Shown here piece by piece: positions 21,183-60,421 of a stretch of DNA of 64,000 bases. Source of the DNA: Candidatus Thorarchaeota archaeon (GTDB lineage Archaea > Asgardarchaeota > Thorarchaeia > Thorarchaeales > Thorarchaeaceae). The notes under the pieces are model-generated. The model had not been told where the DNA came from, made no database searches, and saw nothing but the letters and a program-made list of their open reading frames with translations. Position 1 is the stretch's first letter, and each line of letters begins with the position of its first letter. A program made the translations under genes and the position numbers. The DNA lies in NCBI GenBank assembly GCA_019057475.1, contig DXJO01000027.1:1-64000 (forward strand), given 5' to 3'.

Positions 21183-22133
21183 ATGACTGATGAGATTGAC
21201 TTGAACTGGGAACTCATAGTGATTGGCGGAGGGCCTGCAGGAATGACCGCGGCCATGTATGGTGCGCGATACGGGCTCAAGACAATGCTACTAGAGTCAA
21301 GAGTCCTAGGAGGAGCGCAGGCCACGAGCCCGGGCATTGAAAACTACCCAGGCTTCAACTTCATTGTTGGCATGGATTTGGCCAATAAAATGAAAGAACA
21401 GCTCAAGAAGTGCGGAGCAGAGTACAAGGAAATCACTGAAGTAAAGAGTATCAAGATACTTGAGGACTCAGGGGACTTCGCTCTGGAAACGAGGCGTGGG
21501 GAGTACATCGCAAAGGCAATAGTCATTGCCACTGGGGGAGGCCACAGAAAGCTGGGTGTGCCAGGAGAGGATGAATTCACAGGAAGAGGTGTTTCCTTCT
21601 GTGCTACCTGTGACGGGCCTCTCTTCAGAGGGAAGACATTGGCTGTCATCGGGGGCGGCAACACCGCTGTAACCGAGGCCCTGTATCTATCTGAACTAGC
21701 AGGGAAGGTTTACGTGATTCATCGAAGAGATGCTCTGAGGGCCGAACAAGCAGTACAGGATATGTTGTTCAGAACTGACGCAGAGATTGTGTGGGACCAT
21801 ATTGTAAAGGAGTTCCACGGTGAGCAGCTGATATCAGACATCCTGATTGAGAATGTCAAGAGTGGCGAAACACGAACCTTGGAGATTGATGGTGTCTTTG
21901 TGGCTCTTGGTTCAGATCCTGAGAGCAAGCTTGTGAAGCCGCTTGAAGTGAAGACGAACAAGCGCGGCGAGATTTTCACAGATGGCGAACAGAAGACAAA
22001 CGTGCAAGGTCTCTTTGCAGCAGGCGATGTCGTGGATGGGATGAAGCAAATCGTTGTGGCAGCTGGTCAAGGCGCAGTTGCTGCAGATTCTGCATACAAG
22101 TACATTCGTAAAGAAAAGACGGGCCCGCGTTAG
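21183..22133 (+). CDS. trxB: Thioredoxin reductase
   Basis: 316 residues. FAD-binding GGGPAGMTAAMYGARYG, the redox-active pair in CATCDG (about residue 140), the NAD(P)H-binding IGGGNTAVTEALYL, and the late FAD contact LFAAGDVVD are in the right order. The HRRDALRA stretch carries arginines of the kind that bind the NADPH phosphate. It keeps thioredoxin-type proteins reduced in the cytosol. No thioredoxin gene is adjacent. Confidence 0.95.
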   Translation: MTDEIDLNWELIVIGGGPAGMTAAMYGARYGLKTMLLESRVLGGAQATSPGIENYPGFNFIVGMDLANKMKEQLKKCGAEYKEITEVKSIKILEDSGDFALETRRGEYIAKAIVIATGGGHRKLGVPGEDEFTGRGVSFCATCDGPLFRGKTLAVIGGGNTAVTEALYLSELAGKVYVIHRRDALRAEQAVQDMLFRTDAEIVWDHIVKEFHGEQLISDILIENVKSGETRTLEIDGVFVALGSDPESKLVKPLEVKTNKRGEIFTDGEQKTNVQGLFAAGDVVDGMKQIVVAAGQGAVAADSAYKYIRKEKTGPR

Positions 22134-22239
22134 TGTACAACCGTTCAACATGGGGAAATGTTAATAACACCCCAGCAGTCCGAGGCACAACGCGCCGAGA
22201 CAGTGTTTTCGGTGTCACCTATTTGACCGTGGTGTCCGC

Positions 22240-23430
22240 ATGAAGAAGGTCCAAGTAGCAGGTTTAGTGCTAGCAGTAGCCATTCTGGCGATGGCATTTA
22301 CAACGATACCAACTGCGGCCAATCCAGCAACCCGTTTTGAATCCCTGAATACTTATCTGACTGATAGGTATGATACAGCCGAAGGGGGCTATAATCTTGA
22401 TGGAGAGGGAACCTCGCGAATAGAGGCAACCTATTCTGCTGCTCTCTTATGGGATGCTATTGGATATCTGGATGCAAGACCCCCGACAGTCGATCTTCTG
22501 AAGATGGCGAACTTCACTCAAAAGGTGCAATGGGATACCGGTGGAGAGAGCAATGAACGCTACGGAGGTTTTGGCTCCTTCATCGCTGGTCTAGTCAGCG
22601 TAGAAACCACCTACAAAGCGATAGCCCTCTGGAAGATTATTACTGCGCAGAGTGGCATTCCGGGCTTGGATGATGTAGAGATTAATGCGACGGCAGCATT
22701 GATGTTCATCAACAGGACTCAGACAACTAGCGGAGGATTCAGTGATGAGGTTGGAGGCAATGCAGACATCGTTTCCACCTACCTCGCGTTGGAGGTCATC
22801 GAAATCCTCGCTAGCGAAACTCCATGGACTCTGGATAGTCTACTTCTCAATAAAACAGCCACAATCATGTGGATTCTGGACTGCAGAGAGGACGATGCCT
22901 ACAAGTTGAGCCCCGAATCAACCACAGCAGGAGTTACACCAAGTGCTGCGGCTCTCCTCTCGCTAAACCTATTGGATGCCCTTCCAGTCGCAACGGTCGT
23001 TCAAGCCACAAAGACATGGATAATGAATCGTCAGGATCTTAACCCCGATGTAATCGAGCTAACTGGGGGTTTTGAGGAAGGGGTTCTGACCAACGATACG
23101 AATCTTCTGAGCACGCACTATGCCCTAAAAGCCATGGACCTACTCAACGCCATCGAGGAAGTCAATGAAACAGTGACGCAGTTTGTTCTGAATTGCCAGT
23201 CATTTGATGGCGCTTGGGCCAATGCTCCGGGCTTCGAAGTCGGATATATCCAGTTCATTGCCAATGCCATGCAATGCTTAACTCTCCTTGAGGAGAATCA
23301 CCTGACCGTCTTGTTAGTGGAGCATCCTGGCACGCCGTCAGTCCCCCTAGTAGATTGGCGACTCCTATTCGTTGTCCTGTTCATCATTGCAGCGATGATT
23401 GTTGGCTTTGTAGCTCTCCGACTTGACTAG
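22240..23430 (+). CDS. Secreted, membrane-anchored alpha/alpha-toroid (prenyltransferase/squalene-cyclase-like repeat) protein
   Basis: 396 residues. An N-terminal signal peptide (MKKVQVAGLVLAVAILAMAF) and a C-terminal membrane helix (LLFVVLFIIAAMIVGFVAL) place the body outside the cell. The body holds about six repeats of roughly 50-60 residues in which a GGF/GGY/GAW glycine-aromatic turn is followed by a helix of the form TYxALxxL. This is the pattern of terpenoid-cyclase/prenyltransferase-type toroids, which also occur in non-catalytic extracellular proteins. No catalytic DxDD or zinc triad was seen, so binding rather than cyclase activity is likely. Several sequons could carry glycans. 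Confidence 0.7.
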   Translation: MKKVQVAGLVLAVAILAMAFTTIPTAANPATRFESLNTYLTDRYDTAEGGYNLDGEGTSRIEATYSAALLWDAIGYLDARPPTVDLLKMANFTQKVQWDTGGESNERYGGFGSFIAGLVSVETTYKAIALWKIITAQSGIPGLDDVEINATAALMFINRTQTTSGGFSDEVGGNADIVSTYLALEVIEILASETPWTLDSLLLNKTATIMWILDCREDDAYKLSPESTTAGVTPSAAALLSLNLLDALPVATVVQATKTWIMNRQDLNPDVIELTGGFEEGVLTNDTNLLSTHYALKAMDLLNAIEEVNETVTQFVLNCQSFDGAWANAPGFEVGYIQFIANAMQCLTLLEENHLTVLLVEHPGTPSVPLVDWRLLFVVLFIIAAMIVGFVALRLD

Positions 23431-54808: not shown

Positions 54809-56665
54809 TTAGTCCCAGTGAAGAGGACTTGCACAATGGGGACAGACTGTGGTTTCGCCGGGCAGACCTCGCTTTGCCAGTGCCCCACGGCAGTGAGAGC
54901 ATTCAATCCTTCTGGGCTGCACCGGCTCGGCCACGGCCTTGCTCCTCAACAGTAGGTCTCTCAGGTTCTCACGCATATCATCCAGTAGACTTGAGAACTT
55001 GGCTTCATCTTCTGAGGCAACAGAGATTCTAGTCTGTTGGTTGTCTTTTGATACTGACCCGATGATGATTACCTCTGCTCCCTCGACAGTGGCCTTGCCG
55101 TAGTATAGGGCTTCTTTCAGCACCTCAAGAAAACCGCGCTCGCCCACAAACCAGACGTCGTGTTGCTCAATTACCTTCTTGACTATGCCAAAGACCTTTT
55201 CGGCATCAGCTTCTGCGTCCAAGGTTACACTGAACTCGCGCTTCGCCTGAAGCTTTTCATCTATGAGACGATCAAGATGGGCCATGTCAGCAGTCGCCAA
55301 GTACGCATCACGAACTGCAGCCTCATTGGCTGTTGGAATCCGCATCTCAGTGTCGCCATGTTCACTGCACGTCAATACTGCCAAAGACTCACCTTCTCGT
55401 TCGTGGGGTTTAATCTCAACGAGGCTGAGCTTATCGTGGCACTTTGGACACTCGTAAAGGCGCCCGTATAGTTTCACCAATAATTCATGGTTCATGCATT
55501 GCACATAGACGCGAGCACTTTCATGCCCGTTCTGGCACTTCACTTGGAGTTCGAATAGTCCATTCTCAATCTTGATGTTGCGGATTGTGAAAGGAGCACT
55601 GCATTTGCCGCATCGGAAGCTCTCCTCTAGAAACTTTTTTCTATCGATGGCTGGCTCTCGTTCCTCGATTTGCTTGTAAACGCCAACCTTGAGCCACTTT
55701 CGCATTGTTCCATGGATGGGACAGACAAGCTCTAGCGTGACATTTTCTCCCTTGACGCTTTTCTCCAGAATGTGTGCCAGAAGGTCGCATTTGTCGCATT
55801 TGAGCACTGCATTGACTATTGCATCTATGGACTGGGTTGTTCGCTCGATTGGTTGCACGATTTCACAAGAGTGACCCTTTGAGCATCTGCACTTCATCTT
55901 GTACCCCTTCTTGTCTGTGTCAATGTTGCGTATAGACAGGGGGCGTCCGCAATCTCTGCATGTGAGAGCATCCTTCACGATGGCATCCTTCTCAGCCTCA
56001 CCAGAAACCTCTCTTAGAAACTCAGCATTCTCAGCAGGTATCTTCTTCTTGCCCTTTCCGTGAACGGGACAGGACATTTCCACATGTGTGTACTTGCCTT
56101 TGACTTCCGCTTTTTCCAATGAACAGCGGAGGCCGCATTCATCGCACAGAAGCACTCTCTGCATGACACCTTTGAGGATGCTTACATCGGAGTTACGAGG
56201 AAGGTATCTCATCTCCTTGTGCCCATTGGGACATTTCGACTTGATTTCGAGAACACCCTTCTTGTCTTCAATTTCATGAACCATGAACTCCTCACTACAT
56301 CGGGGACAAGTGAAGGCGGCTTCGACAGACTTCCCGGTCTTCTCAATGTCAATGAGGGCTGACACCGCTGAATGATGCCCGATTGGGATGGGCCGTTCCT
56401 GAGGTCCGTGTTCTGGACATACAAAGATGAACTTGACCTGGCGCTTTCCCAAGTCAGTACTGAGAAGTCCCATTGTACTGCCGCAGTCCAGACAGATGCA
56501 TAGGCCCTGGTACAAATCCTCCAGCATGCCTTTGGCTTGTTGAAGAGGGATTTTCCTATCTTCTCTGTGACCATTGAGACATTGCACGCGCATCCGTAGA
56601 TTCGATCCACGGATATCGGCGTATTTGACATGAAAGGGTTCATTGCATTTCTTGCACGTGAACAT
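54809..56665 (-). CDS. Eight-zinc-ribbon array protein with a C-terminal alpha/beta domain (paralogue 2)
   Basis: 618 residues, family not recognised. Eight ribbons of about 65 residues alternate strictly: odd ones are CxxC...CxNGH (or KGH), even ones CxxC...CxxHG, for instance FTCKKC...CLNGH then CLDCG...CPEHG. From about 475 to 580 comes a non-zinc alpha/beta segment (EKVFGIVKKVIEQHDVWFVGERGFLEVLKE, EGAEVIIIGSV), and a ninth ribbon (CSHC...CPHC) ends the protein. The paralogue 95 bases upstream has the same ribbon order. No membrane segment. Many metal sites with basic spacing suggest binding of nucleic acid or protein. Confidence 0.85.
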   Translation of the reverse strand: MFTCKKCNEPFHVKYADIRGSNLRMRVQCLNGHREDRKIPLQQAKGMLEDLYQGLCICLDCGSTMGLLSTDLGKRQVKFIFVCPEHGPQERPIPIGHHSAVSALIDIEKTGKSVEAAFTCPRCSEEFMVHEIEDKKGVLEIKSKCPNGHKEMRYLPRNSDVSILKGVMQRVLLCDECGLRCSLEKAEVKGKYTHVEMSCPVHGKGKKKIPAENAEFLREVSGEAEKDAIVKDALTCRDCGRPLSIRNIDTDKKGYKMKCRCSKGHSCEIVQPIERTTQSIDAIVNAVLKCDKCDLLAHILEKSVKGENVTLELVCPIHGTMRKWLKVGVYKQIEEREPAIDRKKFLEESFRCGKCSAPFTIRNIKIENGLFELQVKCQNGHESARVYVQCMNHELLVKLYGRLYECPKCHDKLSLVEIKPHEREGESLAVLTCSEHGDTEMRIPTANEAAVRDAYLATADMAHLDRLIDEKLQAKREFSVTLDAEADAEKVFGIVKKVIEQHDVWFVGERGFLEVLKEALYYGKATVEGAEVIIIGSVSKDNQQTRISVASEDEAKFSSLLDDMRENLRDLLLRSKAVAEPVQPRRIECSHCRGALAKRGLPGETTVCPHCASPLHWD

Positions 56666-56759: not shown

Positions 56760-59036
56760 CTACTGAAGATACAGCGCTATAGTCAATGAATGGGAGCAGT
56801 ACCTGCATCTAATCGGTTTGCGTGTGCCAAGTTCCTCTACCTGCTCTGTTTCCAGTGGAGCGCCACATCGCAAGCAAATCCAGGAGTCCATCGTATCGGC
56901 AAGCTCATCGATTGTTGTTGGCAGCATGGCGATATCCTCACCTAACGCTTCGACCTTCACAACCGAATGCCGACCATTCTCAGGACCAGTAATGAGGAAG
57001 ATAACTGCGACCTTCTTGCCTGTGTACTTCCCCTTCGCAAACCCGCGAATAGTACCTATGAACTGGCCTCCAACAATTGTTTCTTCACTGTCGATGATAT
57101 GAAAGTTCTTGGCCGGGAGTATCTTCTCTGCTTTGGTGAACAGGACTCGGGGGTTCCAATCGAGAGTTTGTTCCTGCTGGGTGATTGTCAAGCTCTTCAG
57201 GATAAGGTCGAATTCCTCTGATGTTTTCTTTGATGGCTTCAACAGGTCACATACAGATCGAATAAGGTACGGTTCGACCTGTACGGTATGAAGCTGGTCG
57301 CGGAAATCGATGAATGACACCGTAGATACAACTTTGCCTTGAACACAGTCCTTGGTGGGGTAGAACGTGAATTGAGGGCTCCTGAAGCCACCCACTTCAA
57401 TACGCGATATCGTTTTCACTGCCTCTCCAGCAAGTTCCATGCTGTCCTTTGGATAAGCGACTATGTTCACCGTTACATTCGTAATGACATAGCCACTATT
57501 GTTCTTCACCTTAACCTTGTAATCGAATTTACCACCCACGATATTGCACCCACGCAGCACTTGCACATCTGCTTGCTGAGCCTCAACCATCTCAACTAGA
57601 GGTTCAAGAATATGCGGCTCTTCATACTCCTCAGCCTCAACAGGCGGCTTGAGCTTGTCCGCCTGTATCTCATCGTAGGCGATTTTCATGGCTTCTGCAT
57701 GATCATGGGGTATCTCTAGGACGTACTTGCCATGCACAGGACATAGCTGCACTACTCGCGACTCTCGCCCTCGTGGTTCAGCGTACACCAGATCCAGAGA
57801 ATCATAACACTCAGGACACTGGTAGAAATGTTTGTAGAGGTTCACCAGTGTTTCCTGCGGCAGACCTGGAACAAAGAATCGCTTTGCTCTATGTCCATTC
57901 CTACATTCAACATCGAACTCGATTAAACCCCTCTTGTCTTCAACGTCCCTGAGAAAGAGCGGCATGTTGCATTTCTCACAGCTAAGACTTCGGACAATTG
58001 AGGGCAGCCTATCAATCATTGGCTCGCGTTCCTTGATGTGATCAAACACATCTGAAGGAACATCTCTTTGCATCACACCATGAATTGGACAGACTACCCT
58101 GAACTCTACTTTCTTCTTACGTCGTTTCACATCATGCCCGTGAGTAAGAAGGCCACACTCGTTGCATGACATCAGGGCTGCAGCAACCCGATCCTTCACG
58201 GGATCACTCCAAGTCAGCGGGATGTTTCTAGTTGTTGTATGACCATCACTTGGACAAATGCATCTGAACTTGTATCCAGACTCGTCACCTTCAATGGCTC
58301 GTATCGAGAGAGGGAATTGGCAATTACTGGAAACAAGCATCGCTCTAACAACGGCGTCCTCAGGTATCTCGCTCGCAGCTTGTTTCATGAGCTTAACTAG
58401 GTCGGCAGGAATTTCCTTCCTATCAGACCCGTGGAGCGGGCATGATATGTGAATTTTGACAGTTTCTCGATTCATCTCAATTCTAGTAATGGTGCTTGGG
58501 AGACCACACCTATCGCAATGAACAACTCGTTGTAGCAGTTGTTTGAGTAATCCTTCTTCAGCATTATCAGGAACGTATCTTGTTGTCTTGTGTCCATTTG
58601 AACACCGCACGAGCATCTCAAGGAAACCCCTTCGGTTCTTAATGCCACTCACTGCATAGACCTGACCACACGAGAGACACTTGAAGGAGTCCAGAATGGA
58701 GCCAGGACTATCCACATCCGCACCTAGAATCTCGACTGTTGACTGAAACTGAGCTGGAAACTCGCGTTCCACTGGGCCATGAATGGGACAGAGAAAAGTG
58801 CTCTCAATCTGAGAATGATGAGGGATGGTGGATAGCTGTGTCATTGAAGACCCGCAGTCGGTGCACAAGAACAATTTCTTGAAAAGGTCTGGAGCCATTT
58901 CTTGAGCTTGGTGCTCGGCCAATCGTCTGACACTTTTATGACCATTCACACACTGAACATCCATCTTCAGGATTTTGTCCTTAATCTCGGCAGCTTGAAT
59001 GTACAGCTGTTGGCTACATTTTCTGCAAGTGAACAT
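56760..59036 (-). CDS. Eight-zinc-ribbon array protein with appendage-like C-terminal domains (paralogue 1)
   Basis: 758 residues. The eight ribbons alternate NGH- and HG-types exactly as in paralogue 2; ribbon 5 has lost a ligand (MLVSSNC where CxxC is expected). An Ig-like beta-sandwich (about 492-600: FDYKVKVKNNSGYVITNVTVNI, FTFYPTKDCVQGKVVSTVSF) is followed by an alpha/beta part (about 605-715) and a last zinc ribbon (CLRCG...CRYC). Sandwich plus platform in that order is the layout of the appendage of gamma-COP and AP-2 subunits. This is only a by-eye resemblance. The gene is central in a three-gene minus-strand cluster. Confidence 0.85.
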   Translation of the reverse strand: MFTCRKCSQQLYIQAAEIKDKILKMDVQCVNGHKSVRRLAEHQAQEMAPDLFKKLFLCTDCGSSMTQLSTIPHHSQIESTFLCPIHGPVEREFPAQFQSTVEILGADVDSPGSILDSFKCLSCGQVYAVSGIKNRRGFLEMLVRCSNGHKTTRYVPDNAEEGLLKQLLQRVVHCDRCGLPSTITRIEMNRETVKIHISCPLHGSDRKEIPADLVKLMKQAASEIPEDAVVRAMLVSSNCQFPLSIRAIEGDESGYKFRCICPSDGHTTTRNIPLTWSDPVKDRVAAALMSCNECGLLTHGHDVKRRKKKVEFRVVCPIHGVMQRDVPSDVFDHIKEREPMIDRLPSIVRSLSCEKCNMPLFLRDVEDKRGLIEFDVECRNGHRAKRFFVPGLPQETLVNLYKHFYQCPECYDSLDLVYAEPRGRESRVVQLCPVHGKYVLEIPHDHAEAMKIAYDEIQADKLKPPVEAEEYEEPHILEPLVEMVEAQQADVQVLRGCNIVGGKFDYKVKVKNNSGYVITNVTVNIVAYPKDSMELAGEAVKTISRIEVGGFRSPQFTFYPTKDCVQGKVVSTVSFIDFRDQLHTVQVEPYLIRSVCDLLKPSKKTSEEFDLILKSLTITQQEQTLDWNPRVLFTKAEKILPAKNFHIIDSEETIVGGQFIGTIRGFAKGKYTGKKVAVIFLITGPENGRHSVVKVEALGEDIAMLPTTIDELADTMDSWICLRCGAPLETEQVEELGTRKPIRCRYCSHSLTIALYLQ

Positions 59037-59131: not shown

Positions 59132-60421
59132 CTATGTAACGCTTCCCGGGACATCAACACTCTCAAGGAGCTTATCTCCAGCCTTCTTGACCTTGGAACG
59201 GTACCCCCGCGTTGTGTAGACTCTCACAGGTCGGAGGTCACGATTAAAACTGCGAGCAATTAGACTGACCTCATCAACTGGCCAGAACTCATAGCCCTTG
59301 GACCCACGTTCAAAGAACACCAACTCATCAAGGGGGTATTTCCCCGGGTAGTAAGTCACTGAGGGCCTGTCAGGATAGTCAACATAGACATTTTTTGGAT
59401 CGATATCCGCCGCCTCAGCAATCTCACTCTCTGCTTGAAAGAGGCCATCGGGAGTGGATATCTTCTTCATGAAAGCGACATCGGATATCGCTCTTTCGCT
59501 AGCCAACTTGATGAGATACCGCTTTCGGAAGTCCTTGTAGAGCCTGCTTGCAGTCTGCATCTCATCTGTGTCGTCTTCAGTCACTGAGAGTAGTACATCA
59601 AGGAATGAGAGGTCATCATAGAGCAGGAATTGTTCAATGTCATCGTCAGGAGAAAGGAAGAGCTGGGACCCAGCCTCGTCGAGTATACGCAGAAGCATCA
59701 ATTCTGCGGCGCGCACTGTTCGATGGTAATAGACGGCATCGTACATATTGACGCCTGCCGAGAGGTACGCCTCGAAGGTATGCATGGAACTCCTGTTCAA
59801 TGCAATCTTGTTCTTTGCTATCCGTGTTGCGGCGAATAATCTCCGGTACTCTAGCTGAGCGTACTCAACGCCGGCGAAGTATGCGTCACGCTCAAGATTG
59901 TCGATTAATACGGGATTGATGGGACACTTCATGAGATCAAGCCGGAAGCTCTTCAGCGGAACTCCACGCTCTAGCATGTTCTTTATCTCACTGACGGAAG
60001 TCACACTGCCCTTGATGATATCCTTGACCGGTGATTTCGTAGCAATCAAACTGGCAAGCTTCTGTTTATTGGTTCCCCGAACTGTCAAGTACTCTGTCAT
60101 GACATTATTCCAAGGTCCTGTTGACAGAGTGAGAAGCATTGCGATCAGTCTTGCTCTCTGGACTTCATCCAAGTCGCCGTCCAAGGAGTCAAAGAAAACT
60201 TTGGTGACATGCATAACTCCGAGCAGACGACCCATCACTGACGTGTCTGCACCCGGGAAGACCAAGTGAATGCCTGCGGGCCCGCGGATATTGCGCAACC
60301 TCTGACTGAGCCGGAGGTCCAGTATGGATTTCTCAACACTCGAGAGCTCTATGTACCCATGAAGCGGATCTTTGATTTCGAGCACTGATGGATAATCACT
60401 AATCGGCATGAAAGTCCCCAT
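59132..60421 (-). CDS. HD-superfamily phosphohydrolase-like protein without its metal ligands (pseudoenzyme)
   Basis: 429 residues. The start (VLEIKDPLHGYIEL, QRLRNIRGPAGIHLVFPGA, LLGVMH) is that of SAMHD1/dNTPase-like HD proteins. But HTRFEHSLG has become DTSVMGRLLG, and the metal-binding LLHDIGHGPFSH has become LLTLSTGPWNNV, so the two histidines and the aspartate are gone. Later family features (NLERDAYFAGVEY) remain. It should fold as an HD protein but cannot bind the usual metals. It probably binds nucleotide or a partner. It is first in the cluster with the two zinc-ribbon genes. Confidence 0.85.
   Translation of the reverse strand: MGTFMPISDYPSVLEIKDPLHGYIELSSVEKSILDLRLSQRLRNIRGPAGIHLVFPGADTSVMGRLLGVMHVTKVFFDSLDGDLDEVQRARLIAMLLTLSTGPWNNVMTEYLTVRGTNKQKLASLIATKSPVKDIIKGSVTSVSEIKNMLERGVPLKSFRLDLMKCPINPVLIDNLERDAYFAGVEYAQLEYRRLFAATRIAKNKIALNRSSMHTFEAYLSAGVNMYDAVYYHRTVRAAELMLLRILDEAGSQLFLSPDDDIEQFLLYDDLSFLDVLLSVTEDDTDEMQTASRLYKDFRKRYLIKLASERAISDVAFMKKISTPDGLFQAESEIAEAADIDPKNVYVDYPDRPSVTYYPGKYPLDELVFFERGSKGYEFWPVDEVSLIARSFNRDLRPVRVYTTRGYRSKVKKAGDKLLESVDVPGSVT

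Follow-up and report, generated by a model that had tools for sequence, protein, structure and literature searches.

In eukaryotic vesicle coats, appendages serve as the hubs that recruit partners. The platform subdomain of eukaryotic appendages carries an FxxxW ligand-binding motif, which in yeast gamma-COP reads FxxxF (PMC2262067). Archaeal appendages are already in print as well (PMC10936438, PMC10307638). Makarova et al. 2024 reported adaptin appendages of IG plus TBP fold in the ESCRT loci of Methanobacteriales (Meth_adaptin), one of these proteins having a Zn-ribbon and another being membrane-linked to a GOLD domain, and noted that Asgard multidomain ESCRT proteins also carry adaptin appendages; the distal appendage subdomain is described there as a TBP/helix-grip fold (PMC10936438). 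The protein reported here is therefore not the first archaeal case. It is encoded in a window of 64,000 nucleotides (positions 1 to 64,000 of contig DXJO01000027.1, assembly GCA_019057475.1) from a Candidatus Thorarchaeota archaeon, and combines a predicted appendage with an array of putative zinc ribbons.

Gene and protein layout

The open reading frame of 758 codons at 56760..59036 on the minus strand is a real gene; about 20 full-length relatives occur in other Thorarchaeota assemblies, nearly all of them 757-762 aa long and with both the layout and the gene neighbours kept. The protein consists of a zinc-ribbon array, an acidic linker, the appendage and a C-terminal zinc ribbon. The array (residues 1-465; 57642..59036, minus strand) was delimited by its cysteine motifs and comprises seven ribbons with CxxC starts at residues 4, 58, 120, 174, 291, 353 and 407, which alternate between C-x2-C...C-x3-H (CxNGH) and C-x2-C...C-x2-H (CPxHG), and a degenerate ribbon near residue 236. 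We count seven or eight zinc ribbons, for which zinc binding is predicted. The array is likely to be rod-shaped, as modelled on the neighbouring 618-aa paralogue, and it is limited to the protein's own family with one weak exception.

The array is followed by a hinge-like acidic linker (residues 466-490; 57567..57641, minus strand) with a net charge of -9. At the other end of the appendage, sequence motifs mark a four-cysteine zinc ribbon (residues 720-758; 56763..56879, minus strand) with CxxC at 721 and 744, its four-cysteine span being 721-747 in the structural model of residues 485-758. Such a ribbon follows the appendage in most, not all, family members and weakly resembles RPAB4-type ribbons (Pfam; 24/55 members, best E 2.2e-4). 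A match to Evr1_Alr (E 2.3e-5, two stretches, under its cut-off) overlies zinc-ribbon cysteines and was rejected as a cysteine-pattern match. Scans of the protein with Pfam, NCBIfam and PADLOC gave no family for the appendage domain.

Fold of the appendage domain

Residues 485-758 were modelled with AlphaFold2 (model residue i is protein residue 484+i) from an alignment of the window domain and 54 relatives, 55 in all, taken from genome-contig loci; the model has a mean pLDDT of 91.1 and a pTM of 0.73. It predicts an Ig beta-sandwich of ten strands (residues 491-601; 57234..57566, minus strand; DSSP on the model, Foldseek) followed by a platform (residues 606-716; 56889..57221, minus strand; model, Foldseek and PDB profile match) of the order helix-strand-helix-four strands-helix, with the helix at 606-613, strand at 617-625, helix at 629-642, four strands at 646-699 and helix at 704-716. 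An earlier note on this DNA had placed a sandwich at about residues 492-600 and a platform at 605-715 (positions 56892-57563, i.e. residues 492-715), a division which the model bears out.

When the model was searched with Foldseek against 350,542 PDB chains, ranks 1-14 were occupied by coat appendages only (E 3.2e-10 to 1.2e-7). The top match was beta-COP (9qpq_H, E 3.2e-10, TM 0.63 by query and 0.70 by target); alpha-adaptin (1w80) matched at E 9.4e-10, beta2-adaptin (1e42) at E 9.4e-9, and gamma-COP (1pzd and 1r4x) at E 4.7e-8 and 1.2e-7 with TM values of 0.42 and 0.38. The best non-appendage match, to the Ig domains of the TRAP complex, reached E 6.8e-6 and covered about half of the query. 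Since the 14 best of all these chains are coat appendages, chance is excluded as the cause of the fold match. The structural alignment to an appendage comprises 239 columns against a target of 243 residues, the order of sandwich and platform and their packing being alike, and identity to eukaryotic appendages in the Foldseek alignments is just 10-13%. The model supports the assignment of residues 491-716 to the coat-protein appendage fold as an Asgard member, with the two-subdomain order of beta-COP, gamma-COP and AP-2, and we regard the appendage fold of these residues as a firm prediction. The earlier note had compared the domain with gamma-COP and AP-2, and would have given up the idea for a fold with no platform or with best matches to unrelated Ig domains only; the model contains a platform and appendages come first among the matches, so the likeness in fold stands, while the nearest structure is beta-COP, followed by the alpha and beta2 subunits of AP-2, with gamma-COP more distant.

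At the sequence level, a search of all PDB sequences with a profile built from 16 relatives, which needs no structural model, ranked the beta-COP platform first and in the correct register, at an E of 0.067 that is not significant. With hhalign the archaeal profile matched the beta-COP platform at E 2.8e-3 (reversed control 0.28), and at E 2.2e-4 (reversed 0.19) when relatives combining HEAT repeats and an appendage were merged into the profile; the beta-COP value is supportive only, because the segment had been chosen beforehand as the top match. Nothing significant was obtained with the archaeal profile against single sequences of alpha-AP2, beta2-AP2 and gamma-COP, so that homology to these rests on structure. 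Periplasmic binding proteins returned by a single-sequence PDB search (E 0.03 and above) were set aside as noise.

Conserved residues

The platform has FxxxL (F609-D-L-I-L613; 57198..57212, minus strand), by sequence alignment to beta-COP, where eukaryotes have FxxxW. Phenylalanine is found in 53 and leucine in 51 of the 55 relatives; the FxxxW motif is absent from the platform, and none of the 55 has a tryptophan at its position. Judged from this alignment, the hydrophobic site is conserved in the archaeal family and the tryptophan is not, and the replacement suggests that the ligands probably differ from the eukaryotic ones. Two cysteines are invariant in the aligned relatives (55/55 each), Cys564 of the sandwich in the motif TKDCV (57345..57347, minus strand) and Cys596 at the sandwich-platform junction in the motif IRSVCDLL (57249..57251, minus strand). 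Both lie near the junction and may form a metal or disulfide pair.

Paralogue and gene neighbourhood

Downstream lies a gene for a paralogue of 618 aa (54809..56665, minus strand; model, hhalign) with the same ribbon array, a platform-like domain (residues 475-577) and a C-terminal zinc ribbon, and without the Ig sandwich. In the model (pLDDT mostly 85-93, pTM 0.64) its array consists of eight beta-ribbon units separated by helices, and residues 475-577 show the order strand-helix-four strands-helix, as in a platform. By hhalign this domain matches the appendage-ribbon profile with 95.6% probability, and compared platform to platform it gives E 1.2e-4, or E 1.8e-7 against the platform of the HEAT-appendage proteins, with reversed controls at 0.08-0.1. 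The whole paralogue model has beta2-adaptin as its first Foldseek match (E 1.1e-4); with an rmsd of 16 over 298 columns the superposition is poor and the match gives weak support.

The upstream gene (59132..60421, minus strand) encodes an HD-associated region (PF19276, E 1.1e-18; Pfam) and is retained in those orthologous loci that extend that far. By eye the HD metal motif of its product appears degenerate, and the protein may be catalytically inactive. Synteny is kept across the Thorarchaeota loci, with the HD-associated gene upstream and the 618-aa paralogue downstream, the latter being absent or elsewhere in some. Beyond the paralogue come the opposite-strand genes, a PadR-like regulator and two ABC transporters. 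A DUF2070-like gene is also among the kept neighbours, several of which were named by eye. No ESCRT (Vps4/ESCRT-III), GTPase or coat gene was recognised beside the gene, the conserved loci included.

Appendage relatives in Asgard archaea

The appendage is widespread in Asgard archaea (121 of 228 genomes, 33 of 62 genera) and occurs in three settings: zinc-ribbon proteins, single-span proteins with large ectodomains, and HEAT-repeat/appendage proteins of about 400 aa. Many Thorarchaeota genomes encode an appendage after a single membrane span. The topology was assessed on twelve membrane relatives with at least 250 residues (250 to 1244) ahead of the span, which lies 19-54 residues ahead of the appendage; the 15 residues before the span contain 0 K/R and those after it 4-6, a pattern from which the appendage is predicted to be cytosolic in these proteins. 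The ectodomains, where scanned, comprise an SBBP propeller, a family-5 solute-binding domain and a beta-helix. Six loci (L047, L049, L051, L053, L063, L065) encode single-span receptors with predicted cytosolic appendage tails, of up to 1518 codons and most with a terminal zinc ribbon. Shorter relatives of about 370 aa have one N-terminal span, and proteins of five further loci (L054, L057, L058, L059, L060) contain two tandem appendage-ribbon units. The organism's own genome has two full appendages only, that of the window protein and one on a HEAT-repeat protein; no appendage on a membrane receptor and no canonical adaptin trunk (PF01602, Adaptin_N) were found in it.

The HEAT-appendage proteins, of about 400-420 aa, have a short HEAT region followed by the appendage and occur in at least 20 Thorarchaeaceae genomes. 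The gene of the own genome is at L122:7493-8698 (plus strand; G000:C24 ~21492-22697), further ones are in loci L123-L138, and in another Asgard family, f13, full-length relatives were found in 4/4 searched genomes (e.g. L139:4035-5492, plus strand, whose product has a C-terminal zinc ribbon). HEAT_2 was matched by 13 of 16 of these proteins (best 3e-10), and an f13 member has a weak match to Adaptin_N (0.0017). PF14806, the beta-COP platform, was matched by 5/16; the best match (L134, E 7.5e-5) covers profile positions 14-124 of 128 and falls short of Pfam's curated cut-off. Alignment of the HEAT-appendage relatives with the window domain by hhalign spans the whole domain length (231 columns, E 1.2e-41). 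Taken together, this alignment and the PF14806 matches support the beta-COP likeness of the window domain indirectly, and more strongly than its direct sequence comparisons do. At 16-17 of 17 Thorarchaeaceae loci the HEAT-appendage gene has a Ras-family GTPase gene on either side and a WD40 propeller gene as a neighbour; a roadblock protein is encoded close by in 14/17, and two KaiC-like ATPases in most. This linkage is moderate evidence only, because the region likewise keeps unrelated genes (9-12/17 loci) and no GTPase or WD40 neighbours were seen at the f13 gene (L139).

Proposed function

We consider it quite probable that the protein is an appendage-fold docking hub on a soluble zinc-ribbon scaffold, which is the best explanation of the data. 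The appendage would be carried by a soluble and probably cytosolic ribbon array, attached to the end of the array through the acidic hinge. It would act as eukaryotic appendages do, with partner domains or short peptide motifs bound by its platform (around F609/L613) and by its sandwich. The role of the array would be to keep the appendage at a distance from other proteins and to connect it with them, the platform-only paralogue encoded next to it probably being one. The most likely function of the protein is recruitment in the cytosol, with the appendage as the module and the multi-ribbon array as its scaffold; we infer the cytosolic location, the ligand binding and the pairing with the paralogue, and any role of the protein in sorting or vesicles is hypothetical. 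The presence of the appendage also on the tails of many Thorarchaeota membrane proteins and on a HEAT-repeat protein suggests that the family serves more generally to recruit partners at the inner face of the membrane.

The combination of zinc ribbons with a TBP-like (helix-grip) domain is reminiscent of TFIIB/TBP-type proteins, and this one could instead be a nucleic-acid binding or transcription factor with an incidental appendage fold; zinc ribbons are frequent in transcription factors, the C-terminal one is weakly RPAB4-like, and the distal appendage subdomain has a TBP/helix-grip fold according to PMC10936438. We find this quite unlikely given that the net charge of the array, 465 residues long, is about +2 and that of the two subdomains the platform has an acidic pI of 5.1, that TBP is missing from the best 50 structural matches, which are headed by whole appendages including the sandwich, and that relatives are located on membrane-protein tails. 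A convergent origin, in which Ig and helix-grip domains, both common, came together separately from the eukaryotic coats, would be compatible with the low sequence identity, yet it appears very improbable to us in view of the order and packing shared over 239 aligned columns, of the PF14806 match by sequence of the HEAT-appendage relatives, and of the HEAT repeats in these relatives, beta-COP and adaptins having trunks of this type.

Another alternative is that the protein belongs to an ESCRT-linked sorting system of the kind described by Makarova et al. 2024, its ribbons binding ubiquitin or ubiquitinated cargo. PMC10936438 ties archaeal appendage proteins, with a Zn-ribbon or a membrane-spanning linker, to ESCRT loci, and a longin-like C-terminus seems to succeed the appendage in one relative (L086; by eye, with no Pfam match). 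However, the neighbourhoods of the window gene and of the HEAT-appendage genes contained no recognisable ESCRT gene, and ubiquitin binding by the ribbons is a guess, which leaves this reading rather unlikely.

A more far-reaching proposal, which we put forward tentatively and hold to be rather unlikely, is that Thorarchaeota possess a minimal pre-eukaryotic adaptor/coat kit which selects membrane cargo as COPI/AP do, composed of appendage-tailed receptors, ribbon scaffolds and the HEAT-appendage protein with its GTPases, WD40 protein and often roadblock. If true, the joining of a HEAT trunk to an appendage, as in the large subunits of COP and adaptins, would be older than eukaryotes. The relatives most relevant to traffic are the HEAT-appendage and receptor-tail proteins, which lie outside the window, and the widespread Asgard appendage family provides expressible proteins for testing pre-eukaryotic cargo recruitment by appendages.

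Comparison with known systems

The appendage domain itself is already known in archaea, and its combinations with zinc ribbons, a HEAT trunk and receptors appear provisionally to be undescribed. Multi-ribbon arrays, HEAT-appendage fusions and ectodomain receptors with appendage tails are absent from the text of PMC10936438, and a search of the main texts of open-access papers found none on the HEAT-appendage fusion or the zinc-ribbon array; the novelty of these architectures is therefore provisional. The window protein shares with Meth_adaptin and the Asgard appendage proteins the archaeal IG plus TBP-fold appendage, whereas those proteins are encoded near Vps4/ESCRT-III genes and no such gene was recognised next to the window gene.

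The large subunits of adaptins and COP assemble with medium and small longin subunits and an Arf GTPase into a tetramer or coatomer. They have an N-terminal HEAT trunk, which is absent in the window protein and present only in its off-window relatives. The gamma-COP appendage (1pzd, 1r4x) is alike in fold, but structurally more distant than that of beta-COP. With AP-2 alpha and beta2 (1w80, 1e42) the protein has the two-subdomain fold in common; AP-2 appendages follow a flexible hinge, and the acidic linker suggests one here too, while there is no significant sequence match to these subunits and the protein has no known clathrin or AP partners. Beta-COP differs in its long HEAT trunk, in place of which the window protein has zinc ribbons, in being part of a coat of seven subunits (COPI), and in its FxxxW, which reads FxxxL here. 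It is nevertheless to beta-COP (9qpq_H, 5a1u_G; PF14806) that the domain bears the closest likeness, in the order of sandwich and platform, in the best Foldseek match and in the platform register given by the sequence profile.
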